The notes under the pieces were generated by a model. The model searched no databases, was not told the DNA's origin, and was given only the letters and a program-made list of their open reading frames with translations. A stretch of DNA of 64,000 nucleotides from Paraeggerthella hongkongensis (GTDB lineage Bacteria; Actinomycetota; Coriobacteriia; Coriobacteriales; Eggerthellaceae), in contig NZ_PPTQ01000008.1 of NCBI RefSeq assembly GCF_003340345.1, forward strand, positions 62,001-126,000, given 5' to 3'. The position numbers were made by a program, and so were the translations under genes. Each line of letters opens with the position of its first letter. Within the stretch, counting starts at the first letter, position 1. Of the stretch, positions 42,715 to 48,187 are shown one piece after another.

Positions 42715-43773
<1,059 letters not shown>

Positions 43774-44259
43774 CTACACGTCCTTGCTGTTTCGGGACAT
43801 GGCTATTTTGCCGGTGCGGATGATCTCCTTGATGCCGTAGGCGCGGAAGAGGTCCTCCATGCCCTTGAGCTTGTTCTCGTCGCCGGTGGCCTCGATAGTG
43901 AGCGAGCTTCTTCCCACGTCGACGATCTTCGCGCGGAAGACGTTGGCGATCTCGATGATCTCGCTGCGCCGCTCGGGCGATGCGTTCACCTTGAACATCA
44001 CCAGTTCGCGCTCGATGGCGGCGTCGTTGGTGAGGTCGGTGATCTTATGCACGCTGATCAGCTTGTGAAGCTGCTTGGTAATCTGCTCGAACGCAACCTC
44101 GTCGGCTTTGACGATGGCCGTCACGCGCGACATGGTGGGATCTTCGGTAGGACCGACGGACAGCGACTCGATGTTGAAGCCGCGCCGCGAGATGAGCCCC
44201 GTCACGCGCGAGAGCACGCCGGGCTTGTTCTCCACGAGAACAGACAGGATGTGCCTCAT
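43774..44259 (-). CDS. ilvN: Acetolactate synthase small (regulatory) subunit
   Basis: A 161-residue regulatory subunit with the ACT domain (HILSVLVENKPGVLSRVTGL, RRGFNIESLSVG) that mediates feedback inhibition by valine, plus the C-terminal domain. ATG 44257-44259 overlaps the ilvB stop (ATGA). Confidence 0.95.
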   Translation of the reverse strand: MRHILSVLVENKPGVLSRVTGLISRRGFNIESLSVGPTEDPTMSRVTAIVKADEVAFEQITKQLHKLISVHKITDLTNDAAIERELVMFKVNASPERRSEIIEIANVFRAKIVDVGRSSLTIEATGDENKLKGMEDLFRAYGIKEIIRTGKIAMSRNSKDV

Positions 44260-46166
44260 CGTCCCTCCCCTTTCTGCCCGGCTGCGGGCACGTCGATGCG
44301 CACGGCGCCCACCGCCACGTCGATCGCCCCCATGACCTCGTCGAGCGCGCGGCCCGGCGCCACCATGGGATACACGTTCTGATCGCGCGAAATGGCCACG
44401 TCGAGCAAATAGGGGCCCGGCGCCTCCAGCATGCGCGCAAGCGCCGCATCCAGCTGATCGGGATGCTCCACGCGCTCGCCCTGCCAACCGTACGCGTCGG
44501 CCAGCTTCACGAAATCGGGCGTCGCGTCCAGCAGCGTAGCCGAGTAGCGGCCCTCGTAGAACAGCCGCTGCCACTGATGCACCATGCCCAGGCAGCGATT
44601 GTCCATGATGAGCACCTTCACCGGCGTACCGTGCACGGCGGCCGTGGCCATTTCCTGGCTGTTCATTTGGAACGACCCGTCGCCGGCCACACACACCACG
44701 CGCTTTTCGGGGCAGCCGATGGCCGCGCCGATGGCCGCCGGAAAGCCGAATCCCATGGTGCCCAAACCGCCCGACGACAAAAACGTGCGCGGCGCCTCGC
44801 GATCGATGCTCTGAGCCGCCCACATCTGATGCTGGCCCACTTCGGTGACCACGATGCTCTTGTGCGGGTCCAGCAGAGCGGACAGCTTTCGCATGACCAC
44901 CTCAGGCACGATTTCTTCGGGATTGTCCCCCAGATCAGGATGGTAGAACGGGTAACGCGAGCGCCACGCCGCTATCTTCTCGACCCAATCGCTCGTCGCA
45001 GGCTGGGCGTTCTCCTTCTCGAGCGCCGCCACGATGCCGGCCAAAACGCCCCTGAGGTCGCCCACGATGGGAATCTGCACCTCGCGGACCTTGCCGATCT
45101 CGGCAGGGTCGATATCGATGTGGATCACGTCGGCCCGGGGCGCGAACTCGTCGAGCTTCCCCGTGACGCGGTCCGAGAAACGAGCGCCCGCAGCGATGAT
45201 CAGGTCGCTTTCCGTCATGGCCAGGTTGGCGTACTTGGAGCCGTGCATGCCCACCGGCCCCAGGTTGAGCTTGTGCGAAGCCGGGAACGCCCCCTTGCCC
45301 ATAAGCGTGGTGACCGCGGGAATCTGCATGAGCTCGGCCAGGCGGATCAACTCGTCGGAAGCGCCGGACGACACGATGCCGCCGCCCACGTACAGCACGG
45401 GGCGCTCGGCCTGCTTGATGCGGGCCACAGCCTGCTTGATCTGCTTGGCGTTGCCGCGATACGTAGGCTTGTAGGACGGCAGGTTCACTTCGTCGGGATA
45501 GGAGAACACCATGCTTTCGGAGGCAAGGTCGCTTGGCACGTCGATGAGAACCGGGCCGGGTCGCCCGGTTTTGGCGATATGGAATGCCTCGCGAAACGTG
45601 CGGGTCAGCTCGTCGGTCGACTGCAGCAGGTAGCTGTGCTTGACCACCGGCATGGAAATGCCCACGATGTCCGATTCCTGGAACGAGTCCGTGCCGATCA
45701 CGCCGCGCGGCACCTGGCCCGTGATGACCACGAGCGGCACGCTGTCCATGTAGGCGGTCGCGATGCCCGTGACCGTGTTGGTGGCGCCCGGCCCGCTGGT
45801 CACGATGACCACGCCCACGTTGCCCGTGGCGCGGGCGTACCCGTCCGCCTCGTGCACCGCGCCTTGTTCGTGCCGAGACAGCACGTGCGTGATCTGCTGG
45901 GAATCGTACAGCGCGTCGTACATCTTGATGGCCTGGCCGCCCGGATAGCCGAACACCACGTCTACGCCCTCGGCCTCGAGGGAGGCGATCACCGCTTCAG
46001 CCGCGATCATCGTGGATCCCTGCTTGGCGGTGCCGCTTCCCAACCCGCGCGGAGCGCCCACTGCAGCCGCGCTGGCCGCGGCTCGCGGTGCCGACGCTTT
46101 CTGTCGACCCGCCGCACCGCACGCGGCAGGATCGCGCGCATCGCGTTCTTCGATTCGTTCGCTCAT
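44256..46166 (-). CDS. ilvB: Acetolactate synthase large subunit
   Basis: First common enzyme of branched-chain amino-acid synthesis, a thiamine-diphosphate enzyme. The 636-residue sequence shows VFGYPGGQAIKMYDAL, SRHEQGAVHEADGYARA and the cofactor motif VAGDGSFQMN...NRCLGMVHQW. The first ~50 residues (Ala/Arg-rich) precede the usual start TMIAAEAV. The ATG 46164-46166 is kept because it overlaps the ilvD stop as ATGA. A shorter start near GSTM cannot be excluded. Confidence 0.96.
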   Translation of the reverse strand: MSERIEERDARDPAACGAAGRQKASAPRAAASAAAVGAPRGLGSGTAKQGSTMIAAEAVIASLEAEGVDVVFGYPGGQAIKMYDALYDSQQITHVLSRHEQGAVHEADGYARATGNVGVVIVTSGPGATNTVTGIATAYMDSVPLVVITGQVPRGVIGTDSFQESDIVGISMPVVKHSYLLQSTDELTRTFREAFHIAKTGRPGPVLIDVPSDLASESMVFSYPDEVNLPSYKPTYRGNAKQIKQAVARIKQAERPVLYVGGGIVSSGASDELIRLAELMQIPAVTTLMGKGAFPASHKLNLGPVGMHGSKYANLAMTESDLIIAAGARFSDRVTGKLDEFAPRADVIHIDIDPAEIGKVREVQIPIVGDLRGVLAGIVAALEKENAQPATSDWVEKIAAWRSRYPFYHPDLGDNPEEIVPEVVMRKLSALLDPHKSIVVTEVGQHQMWAAQSIDREAPRTFLSSGGLGTMGFGFPAAIGAAIGCPEKRVVCVAGDGSFQMNSQEMATAAVHGTPVKVLIMDNRCLGMVHQWQRLFYEGRYSATLLDATPDFVKLADAYGWQGERVEHPDQLDAALARMLEAPGPYLLDVAISRDQNVYPMVAPGRALDEVMGAIDVAVGAVRIDVPAAGQKGEGR

Positions 46167-47836
46167 GAGACGTACGCCCCCTTGTCTGCAGATGAGACGA
46201 GCTTCGCGTATTTCGCGAGCACGCCATGATCGTGTTTCGGCGCGGGAAGGCGAAACGCCTCGCGACGCCGGGAAAGCTCGTCGTCGCTCACGTGCAGGGT
46301 GAGCGCGCCGCCTTCGATGTCCACCGTCACCTGATCGCCTTCCTTAACGAGCGCGATAGGCCCGCCCGCCGCGGCTTCAGGGCTCACGTGCCCGACGGCC
46401 GGGCCCTTCGTCGCGCCCGAGAAGCGCCCGTCGGTGATGAGCGCGACGCTCGTGGACAGGCCCATCCCCGAAATGGCCGACGTGGGAGTGAGCATCTCGC
46501 GCATGCCCGGGCCGCCCTTGGGGCCCTCGTAGCGAATGACCACGACGTCGCCCGAAACGATCTCGCCCGCGTAGATCGCCGCGCAAGCCGCCTCCTCGCT
46601 GTCGAAGCAGCGCGCCGGTCCCGTGTGCTTCATCATGGACGGATCGACCGCCGACTTCTTGACAACGGCCCCGTCAGGCGCGATGTTGCCGTGCAGCACC
46701 CGAAGCGCGCCCACCGGCGAGAACGGGTTGTCGTGCGAACGGCACACCTCGCCGTCGGCCGGCTTCGTGCACGACGCCAGATAGTCGTCCATCGGCCCCA
46801 TGCACGTCACGGCCGTGCGGTCGAGCAGCCCGAGCTTCGCCAGCTCGTGCATGACCACCGGCACGCCGCCCACCTCGTACAGGTCGCTGAGCGGGCGCGG
46901 GCCCGAAGGCTGCAGCTTCACCAGATGCGGAGTGCGCGCGCTTGCAGCGTCCCAGTCGTCCATGGTCACGGGGCATCCCGCTTCGCGCGCGATGGCCGTC
47001 AGATGCAGCACCGTGTTCGTGGAGCCGCCGAACGCCATATCGCACTCCATGGCGTTGTGCACGGCGGCGGCGTTCACGATGTCGCGCATGCATACGCCCC
47101 GCTCCAGCAGCTCCATCACCTTCATGCCGGCGTGCTTCGCCAGGCGGATGCGCTCGGAATAGACCGCCGGCACCGTGCCGTTGCCCGGCAAGGCGATGCC
47201 CAGGGCTTCGCACAAGCAGTTCATGGAATTCGCCGTGAACAGACCCGAGCAACTGCCGCACGTAGGGCACGCCGTGTCCTCGTAGTGCTTGAGCTCTTCA
47301 ACCGTCATGGATCCCTGCTGAACGGCAGCCGCGCCATCGAACAACGTGTTGAGATCGGTGGAGGGGCCGCAGCCGCCGGGCTGCTTTCCGGCCAGCATGG
47401 GGCCGCCGGACACGAACACCGTGGGAATGTTCACGCGCAGGGCGCCCAGCAGCATGCCCGGCACGATCTTGTCGCAGTTGGGAATGCACACGAGGGCGTC
47501 GAAGGCGTGGCCCTGCACGGCACATTCCAGGCTGTCGGCGATGACCTCGCGCGACACGAGCGAGTAATGCATGCCGTCGTGGTTCATGGCGATGCCGTCG
47601 CACACCCCGATGGTCGAAAGCTCGAACGGCACGCCGCCCGCCATGTAGATGCCGGCCTTTACGGCCTCGGCGATTTTATCCAGGTTGTTGTGTCCGGGAA
47701 TAACGTCGTTTCGGGAGTTGAACACCGCAACGAGCGGGCGCTTCAGCTCCTCGTCGGTGATGCCGTCCGCCTTGAGCAAGCTGCGGTGGGGGGCGCGCGC
47801 CACGCCGGCGGTAACGGCTTCGCTTCTCAGCTGCAT
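46163..47836 (-). CDS. ilvD: Dihydroxy-acid dehydratase
   Basis: Dehydrates dihydroxy-acids to the keto acids of valine and isoleucine. The 557-residue FeS enzyme has the cluster cysteines in [11 protein letters not shown] and [13 protein letters not shown], and the C-terminal [20 protein letters not shown]-like segment. ATG 47834-47836 follows AAGGAAGGAG. It is the first gene of the operon and is preceded by a T-box-like leader, so it should respond to amino-acid starvation. Confidence 0.96.
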   Translation of the reverse strand: [557 protein letters not shown]

Positions 47837-47863: not shown

Positions 47864-48152
47864 AAAAAAATCCTGTTGCACGTAAGCTGCACCAGGACCT
47901 CAGAAGGAAAGCGGATACGACGCGACGAAGACGCGCGGCCTATCTCAATCGGACTGATAACGGAGTCGCCGGTTCAGCCTACTTGCCCGCGGGTTCCCGA
48001 AGATCGTCCGGGCGAGCCGCGCAACGTTCGAACCGAACTGCTCGGAGGTGGCGTTCAGGCCGCCCACCACCGGCTCGCAGCATCCGCCGGCTCTCTGAAG
48101 ATGGGTTCGTCCCTACTGTCCTCGTCAACGCATTTCGTTCTATGAAGTTGTT
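47864..48152 (-). ncRNA. T-box riboswitch leader of ilvDBNC (candidate)
   Basis: Read on the minus strand, the leader has Stem I hallmarks: an AGTA loop side (48114-48117), AGAGAG (48091-48096), GATGCTG (48078-48084) and the return strand GAACGCCACC leading into TCCGAGCAG. By position this return strand matches the GAA-N-specifier-A arrangement of glycine T-boxes and would place GCC (Ala) at 48050-48052. A terminator follows: arms 47888-47897 and 47871-47880, then seven Ts (47864-47870). Its 5' arm contains TGGT, which could pair with a tRNA ACCA end. A canonical AGGGTGG box is not seen. Leader class is fairly clear; specifier assignment is tentative. Confidence 0.6.
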
Positions 48153-48159
48153 GCAGGCC

Positions 48160-48187
48160 AGTATACCCCAGCTTGCCGCGCGCACAA
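48160..48187 (-). promoter_or_regulatory. ilvD operon promoter
   Basis: On the minus strand TTGTGC (48182-48187) and TATACT (48160-48165) are 16 bases apart. Transcription would start near 48152, just before the T-box-like leader. Confidence 0.6.

Follow-up and report, generated by a model that had tools for sequence, protein, structure and literature searches.

A probable T-box variant with a conserved alanine specifier precedes the ilvDBNC operon of Paraeggerthella hongkongensis

The leader of the ilvD-ilvB-ilvN-ilvC operon in a 64,000-nucleotide stretch of the Paraeggerthella hongkongensis genome (hereafter the window) descends from T-boxes, as judged by the homology of its Stem I, Stem II and Stem IIA/B, and carries the alanine codon GCC at the specifier position. 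It is probably a variant that acts in a T-box-like manner rather than a standard member, since two commonly defining features, the T-box antiterminator and a specifier that matches the operon, were tested for and are not found in it. We favor, with moderate confidence, a model in which this leader attenuates transcription, its GCC would read tRNA-Ala(GGC), and uncharged tRNA-Ala would turn the operon on. In the literature searched (open-licence papers, with the TBDB and RegPrecise tables outside the search) we found no report of an alanine T-box before ilv genes or of T-boxes in ilv leaders of Coriobacteriia.

The leader is approximately 310 nt long and lies on the minus strand. Its parts and the genes that follow are listed below in window coordinates.

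48160..48187, minus strand: sigma-70-like promoter, from sequence (TTGTGC 48187..48182, 16-nt spacer, TATACT 48165..48160)
near 48153, minus strand: predicted transcription start, from the promoter position
48040..48131, minus strand: T-box Stem I (RF00230 alignment; covariation in 38 homologues; score of our own model)
48114..48117, minus strand: AGUA, 5' side of the specifier-loop S-turn (sequence; AGUA in 40 of the 47 ilvD leaders on the tree)
48050..48052, minus strand: specifier GCC (alanine), inside GAA-C-GCC-A at 48056..48049 (RF00230 alignment, conservation, control register)
48045..48048, minus strand: CCUC strand of the lower Stem I helix, which pairs with GAGG and holds CTC (compensatory changes at both variable pairs)
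48043..48041, minus strand: invariant GAG, six bases past the specifier (alignment)
47973..48036, minus strand: Stem II, which has a further S-turn AGUA (47983..47980) and the apical insert CGGACGAUCUUCGG (RF00230 alignment; leader alignment)
47952..47972, minus strand: Stem IIA/B, with F-box-like CCGUUA (RF00230 alignment)
47967..47965 with 47954..47952, minus strand: possible GAC/GUC pseudoknot in IIA/B (GAC...GUC in most homologues)
47914..47944, minus strand: putative Stem III hairpin, GAUA...UAUC (sequence; suitable position)
47890..47894, minus strand: UGGUG, proposed acceptor-end site, complementary to the CACCA end of tRNA-Ala(GGC) (UCCUGGUGC near-invariant; tRNA sequence)
47871..47897, minus strand: intrinsic terminator hairpin (predicted fold)
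47864..47870, minus strand: U7 run of the terminator (sequence)
46163..47836, minus strand: ilvD, dihydroxy-acid dehydratase (PF00920 1e-125, PF24877 1e-78)
44256..46166, minus strand: ilvB, acetolactate synthase large subunit (PF02775/PF00205/PF02776)
43774..44259, minus strand: ilvN/H, acetolactate synthase small subunit (PF10369, PF22629)
42715..43710, minus strand: ilvC, ketol-acid reductoisomerase (TIGR00465 1.6e-130, over cut-off)

Of 47 homologous leaders, 42 have a TATAAT-like hexamer 15-60 nt upstream of Stem I. The protein encoded by ilvD shares 98% identity with its P. hongkongensis counterpart. The start of ilvD is most likely the ATG at 47836, which follows the Shine-Dalgarno sequence AAGGAAGGAG; that of ilvN/H is an ATG near 44259, within an open frame that reaches 44823.

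A local covariance-model search matched RF00230 (T-box) to positions 48137..47941 of the minus strand with 65.5 bits (E 7.1e-14), which falls under the gathering cut-off of 93 bits, and a scan of the window with Rfam at gathering thresholds gave zero matches. The cut-off is strict for this family, since the two canonical T-boxes elsewhere in the genome also score below it (pheS, 67.4; Trp-transporter, 76.9). These two and the ilvD leader are the three T-boxes found by a whole-genome RF00230 search; from the translated downstream proteins, one reads Phe before pheS and the other Trp before a putative Trp-type (ECF-like) transporter. The RF00230 alignment and covariation place in the ilvD leader a Stem I with S-turn and specifier loop (AGUA / GAA-N-codon) and the conserved GAG, and the covariance model places the Stem II S-turn (AGUA) and the IIA/B (F-box) element (CCGUUA). 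An alternative terminator is present as the hairpin with its U7, and the genome encodes a cognate tRNA, tRNA-Ala(GGC), whose 3' end is complementary to the UGGN site (CACCA against UGGUG). The antiterminator with its 7-nt T-box bulge, AGGGUGGNACCGCG, is missing from the leader, and the alanine specifier is unlike the amino acids of the controlled ilvDBNC genes. The window leader also departs from class II (ileS) translational T-boxes, which have a Shine-Dalgarno-sequestering hairpin and no terminator: it ends in a terminator with U7. An earlier note, made from the letters of the window, had proposed a T-box leader with Stem I features before an ilv operon; the RF00230 match and the covariation of Stem I in relatives bear this out, and the coordinates it gave for the leader features are correct.

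Support for Stem I came from comparison among species. Folding energy alone was uninformative for the leader (z = 0.73), so of the fold that the earlier note had recommended as a check, the minimum-energy structure lent no support, while covariation did reveal Stem I. Across 38 homologous sequences, pairing was standard in 95.2% of Stem I cells and 12 of the 23 pairs had changed on both sides. The covariation score was 0.318 compared with 0.168 in shuffles, none of 500 shuffles equaled it, and a shift of the partner by one to three columns abolished the signal. Our own Stem I model scored 116 bits on the window leader, a sequence that is within its training set. The Stem II apical insert (48012..47994, minus strand) recurs among homologues, the outgroup ilvD T-box included, where two leaders (L288/L289) carry GCGGACGACCUCCGC; lineage forms are GGACGAUCUUCGG, GGCUUACCGCC and GGGACACCACUC. 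In some of its forms the insert includes a CACCA-like stretch that is complementary to UGGUG. We considered whether this insert and the terminator arm might meet in a loop-loop contact and rejected the idea, as the complementarity differs between species.

The register of the specifier is fixed from both sides, by the S-turn side (GAA-N-codon) and by the distance of six bases to the invariant GAG. The covariance model pairs its consensus GAAauucaCC with GAAcGCCaCC in the leader, which makes the codon GCC, and counting six bases back from the GAG also gives GCC. Applied as a check to 32 further family T-boxes, this counting rule failed to read one. Among the 31 readable ones, 30 gave UGG, UUC or AUC (Trp, Phe, Ile), and the remaining one gave TAG, before a trpE-like gene. 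The proteins downstream of these controls comprised trp genes, pheS, Trp-type transporters and BASS-type transporters; they were read by eye, and only that of L014 was scanned, which identified a BASS-family protein.

We then mapped 47 leaders onto a gene tree built from their neighboring ilvD genes and read their specifiers by the same six-base count. GCC was found in 35 of the 40 leaders with an intact AGUA S-turn and in one of the 7 without it (Fisher p = 2.7e-4, an indicative value only, given the non-independence of related species). Along the tree, parsimony required 2, 4 and 2 changes at the three codon positions, compared with approximately 12 at each flanking base. The alanine specifier that the earlier note had read thus agrees with the covariance-model alignment, the control register and this conservation; GCC is kept across related genera while its neighbors vary, and the model put no Ile, Leu or Val codon in the specifier. 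The note's alternative, CTC (Leu) a few bases on, is rejected. CTC is part of the 3' strand of a covarying helix, seen as GAGG/CCUC, AGGG/CCCU, GGGG/CCCC and AAGG/CCUU (the last read from L039). A hairpin GGUGGGC/GCCACC, present in the minimum-energy fold of the window, was likewise dismissed as the cause of GCC conservation, as it is unformable in many homologues (in L036, GGUGGAC faces GCCCCC). Two ilvD leaders with an intact S-turn (L059/L199 and L065/L211) read GGC (Gly), one base off GCC, and L215-L218 and L070 read AAG. All of these may represent further specifier changes or decay.

The downstream end of the leader lacks the usual expression platform. The canonical sequence AGGGTGGNACCGCG was not found in the window leader, and the canonical motif GGUGGNACCGC occurs in 0 of 47 Eggerthellaceae-type ilvD leaders, compared with 32 of the 32 other family T-boxes examined. 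This extends to the whole set of leaders what had been noticed in one. The terminator with TGGT in its 5' arm, also noticed earlier, is present as the hairpin 47897..47871 followed by T7, with TGGTG at 47894..47890. Among 24 distinct terminators, the 5' arm UCCUGGUGC is almost invariant and the facing 3' arm is variable. Since these terminators were picked by a pattern requiring GGYGC, some of this uniformity follows from the selection itself, which bears less on the constancy of UCC and on the difference from the freely variable 3' arm. Moreover, the predicted terminators leave the second G of UGG unpaired, and this base is conserved nonetheless. A base kept where the terminator has no use for it suggests another partner, and UGGUG is complementary to CACCA. 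The terminator segment folds with -16.7 kcal/mol, and with -6.7 when UGGUG is held unpaired, a cost of 10 kcal/mol. An upstream partner for a classical antiterminator was sought and rejected, as the linker ahead of UCCUGG is rich in pyrimidines and shows no conservation. We place less weight on the UGGUG site than on the specifier in our model, since in some GCC leaders (L041, L046, L050, L053, L066) the site is CGGUG or missing.

In the mechanism that we favor, uncharged tRNA-Ala would bind with its anticodon paired to GCC in Stem I and its elbow docked onto the tip of Stem I, and the CACCA at its 3' end would pair with UGGUG. Because UGGUG lies in the terminator's own 5' arm, this pairing would stop the terminator from closing and the operon would be transcribed, while with charged tRNA-Ala the terminator would form. 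We infer tRNA binding, the sensing of charging and the sign of the response. Against the model stand the missing canonical antiterminator (discriminator) motif, the two S-turn-intact leaders that read glycine, and a specifier whose mismatch with the operon products contradicts the rule that in verified T-boxes the specifier matches them (PMC2494555). The usual ilv-type specifiers, too, are pathway products and not alanine (PMC2494555, PMC12452182). Physiologically, the coupling may reflect the shared draw of valine and alanine on pyruvate. A connection to alanine synthesis by way of alanine dehydrogenase or AvtA was rejected: the best genome matches to the two families (20 and 87 bits) stayed below the respective cut-offs, so no gene backs a valine-to-alanine route.

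An order-wide survey of Coriobacteriales found the same Stem I before ilvD in three families. By GAA-N-codon, the other ilvD leaders of the order read Thr (ACU, ACA, ACC, ACG) or Ile (AUA, AUC, AUU). Here the gap between specifier and helix is one base shorter, and a frame shifted by one would read CAC/CAU/AAC/GAC. Spacing alone is compatible with both frames, but the third base spans all four Thr and all three Ile codons, as expected of a real codon, and this exclusively synonymous change favors the Thr/Ile frame. Outside the order, the ilvD T-box of three genomes from another family of the same class has CUG (Leu), and two of these three (L289, L291) carry canonical GGUGGUACCGC; their orthology is argued from the Stem II insert, which L289 and L288 have in common with the Coriobacteriales leaders. 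On this comparison, the ilvD-leader specifier has switched in evolution, from Leu outside the order to Thr/Ile and Ala inside it, and, judged from few genomes, a canonical Leu T-box was the likely starting point of the Coriobacteriales forms. The alanine reading together with the missing tRNA-tail sensor motif suggests that the switch was re-tooled in this lineage.

The survey also brought several arrangements to light. In the f2/f4 ilvD leaders (L193, L195, L220-L259), the terminator appears to be replaced by CUCGC-UUUCUC ... GAGAAAGCGAG-like hairpins that cover the Shine-Dalgarno sequence, which suggests translational control with the same Stem I. In two genomes, a canonical Ile (AUC) T-box (L010/L011; G071:C9:1127176-1127408 and G072:C9:35835-36069) precedes a BASS/PanS-like transporter gene, and non-canonical GCC ilvD T-boxes (L280, L258) lie approximately 1.35 kb downstream; with these tandem T-boxes, the family uses a standard Ile T-box beside an Ala one. 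In two other Actinomycetota families, a GCC T-box in the same register (L286, L293) lies before a MocR/class I aminotransferase-like gene, approximately 1500-1610 from the match start, and is a putative second non-alaS Ala T-box. The ilvD of Collinsella bouchesdurhonensis (NZ_LT699739.1; L095/L193) is 82% identical to the window ilvD and sits inside the Eggerthellaceae tree beside Senegalimassilia, which suggests horizontal transfer; its leader reads AUU.

Could the leader instead be a decaying T-box that has stopped sensing any tRNA, with GCC and UGGUG retained for unrelated reasons and expression fixed at one level by the terminator alone? S-turn and specifier are visibly lost in several lineages (L055, L057, L058, L074, L080, L081), and the canonical T-box sequence is lost from all of the family's ilvD leaders. 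We nevertheless hold decay to be unlikely, as most leaders retain the S-turn, GCC is held against fast-changing neighbors, and Stem I is still compensating; moreover, where the S-turn decays the specifier decays with it, a coupling that implies function in the intact leaders. That the true ligand is a branched-chain tRNA, through the other frame (CUC, Leu) or through GCC read with a mismatch by tRNA-Val(GAC), would suit an operon that makes valine and isoleucine precursors; L058 and L203 read GUC, and CUC is the commonest Leu specifier in TBDB (PMC7778990). This is very improbable, however, given that CUC forms one strand of the covarying helix, that Val (GUC) is one base away and yet GCC prevails among intact leaders, and that the family's Ile (AUC) T-boxes use the standard register.

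A sensor of tRNA-Ala (in relatives, tRNA-Thr) could also follow another logic, its specifiers reporting on amino acids tied to the substrates pyruvate (alanine) and, via 2-oxobutyrate, threonine, with binding lowering expression or with total tRNA rather than charging being sensed. The loss of the discriminator from all Eggerthellaceae-type ilvD leaders would fit such a sensor, as would orthologue specifiers that are Ala and Thr, with Ile only in some, and f2/f4 leaders that appear to end in a Shine-Dalgarno-sequestering hairpin and not in a terminator. We consider it rather improbable: Leu is the reading of the outgroup ilvD T-boxes, of which L289 shows the complete canonical motif, and this argues for a switch that was ancestrally of the usual ON type; UGGUG, in turn, has stayed in the arm of the terminator, a place where its pairing would open the hairpin and not close it.

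With class I (transcriptional) T-boxes (RF00230), the leader shares Stem I (S-turn, specifier loop, tip), the Stem II S-turn, IIA/B and an intrinsic terminator before an amino-acid biosynthesis operon; it differs in the mismatched specifier, the missing antiterminator and the UGGUG inside the terminator 5' arm. The B. subtilis ilvBNC-leuABCD T-box, as cited in PMC12452182, likewise controls ilv genes from their leader but reads Leu, as does the outgroup ilvD T-box (CUG) of the same class, whereas the leader here reads Ala. The alaS T-box, for example that of Clostridium acetobutylicum, shares the alanine specifier and the tRNA-Ala ligand (putative here), but controls alanyl-tRNA synthetase and not ilv genes (PMC4695836). 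In TBDB, Ala T-boxes prefer GCU over GCC (0.72 vs 0.09; PMC7778990). Actinobacterial ileS translational T-boxes (PMC1262725) also occur in Actinobacteria, and the f2/f4 orthologues may sequester the Shine-Dalgarno sequence as they do; the window leader differs from them in its terminator, full-length Stem I, gene and specifier.

Beyond the favored model for this one leader, we tentatively raise a broader possibility, which we do not hold to be the probable one: a T-box sub-family in which the antiterminator was lost, UGGUG was built into the terminator and the tRNA itself would act as antiterminator, and in which the ilvD specifier switched from Leu to Ile/Thr and Ala, placing branched-chain synthesis under tRNA-Ala in Eggerthellaceae. 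The missing discriminator poses the question of by what other means charging would be sensed. T-box specifiers serve to predict the function of genes and transporters on the assumption that the codon names the operon's amino acid, a rule that the conserved Ala specifier here breaks. The series of orthologues that read Leu, Ile, Thr and Ala makes specifier switching, and the rewiring of regulation between amino acids, directly testable.
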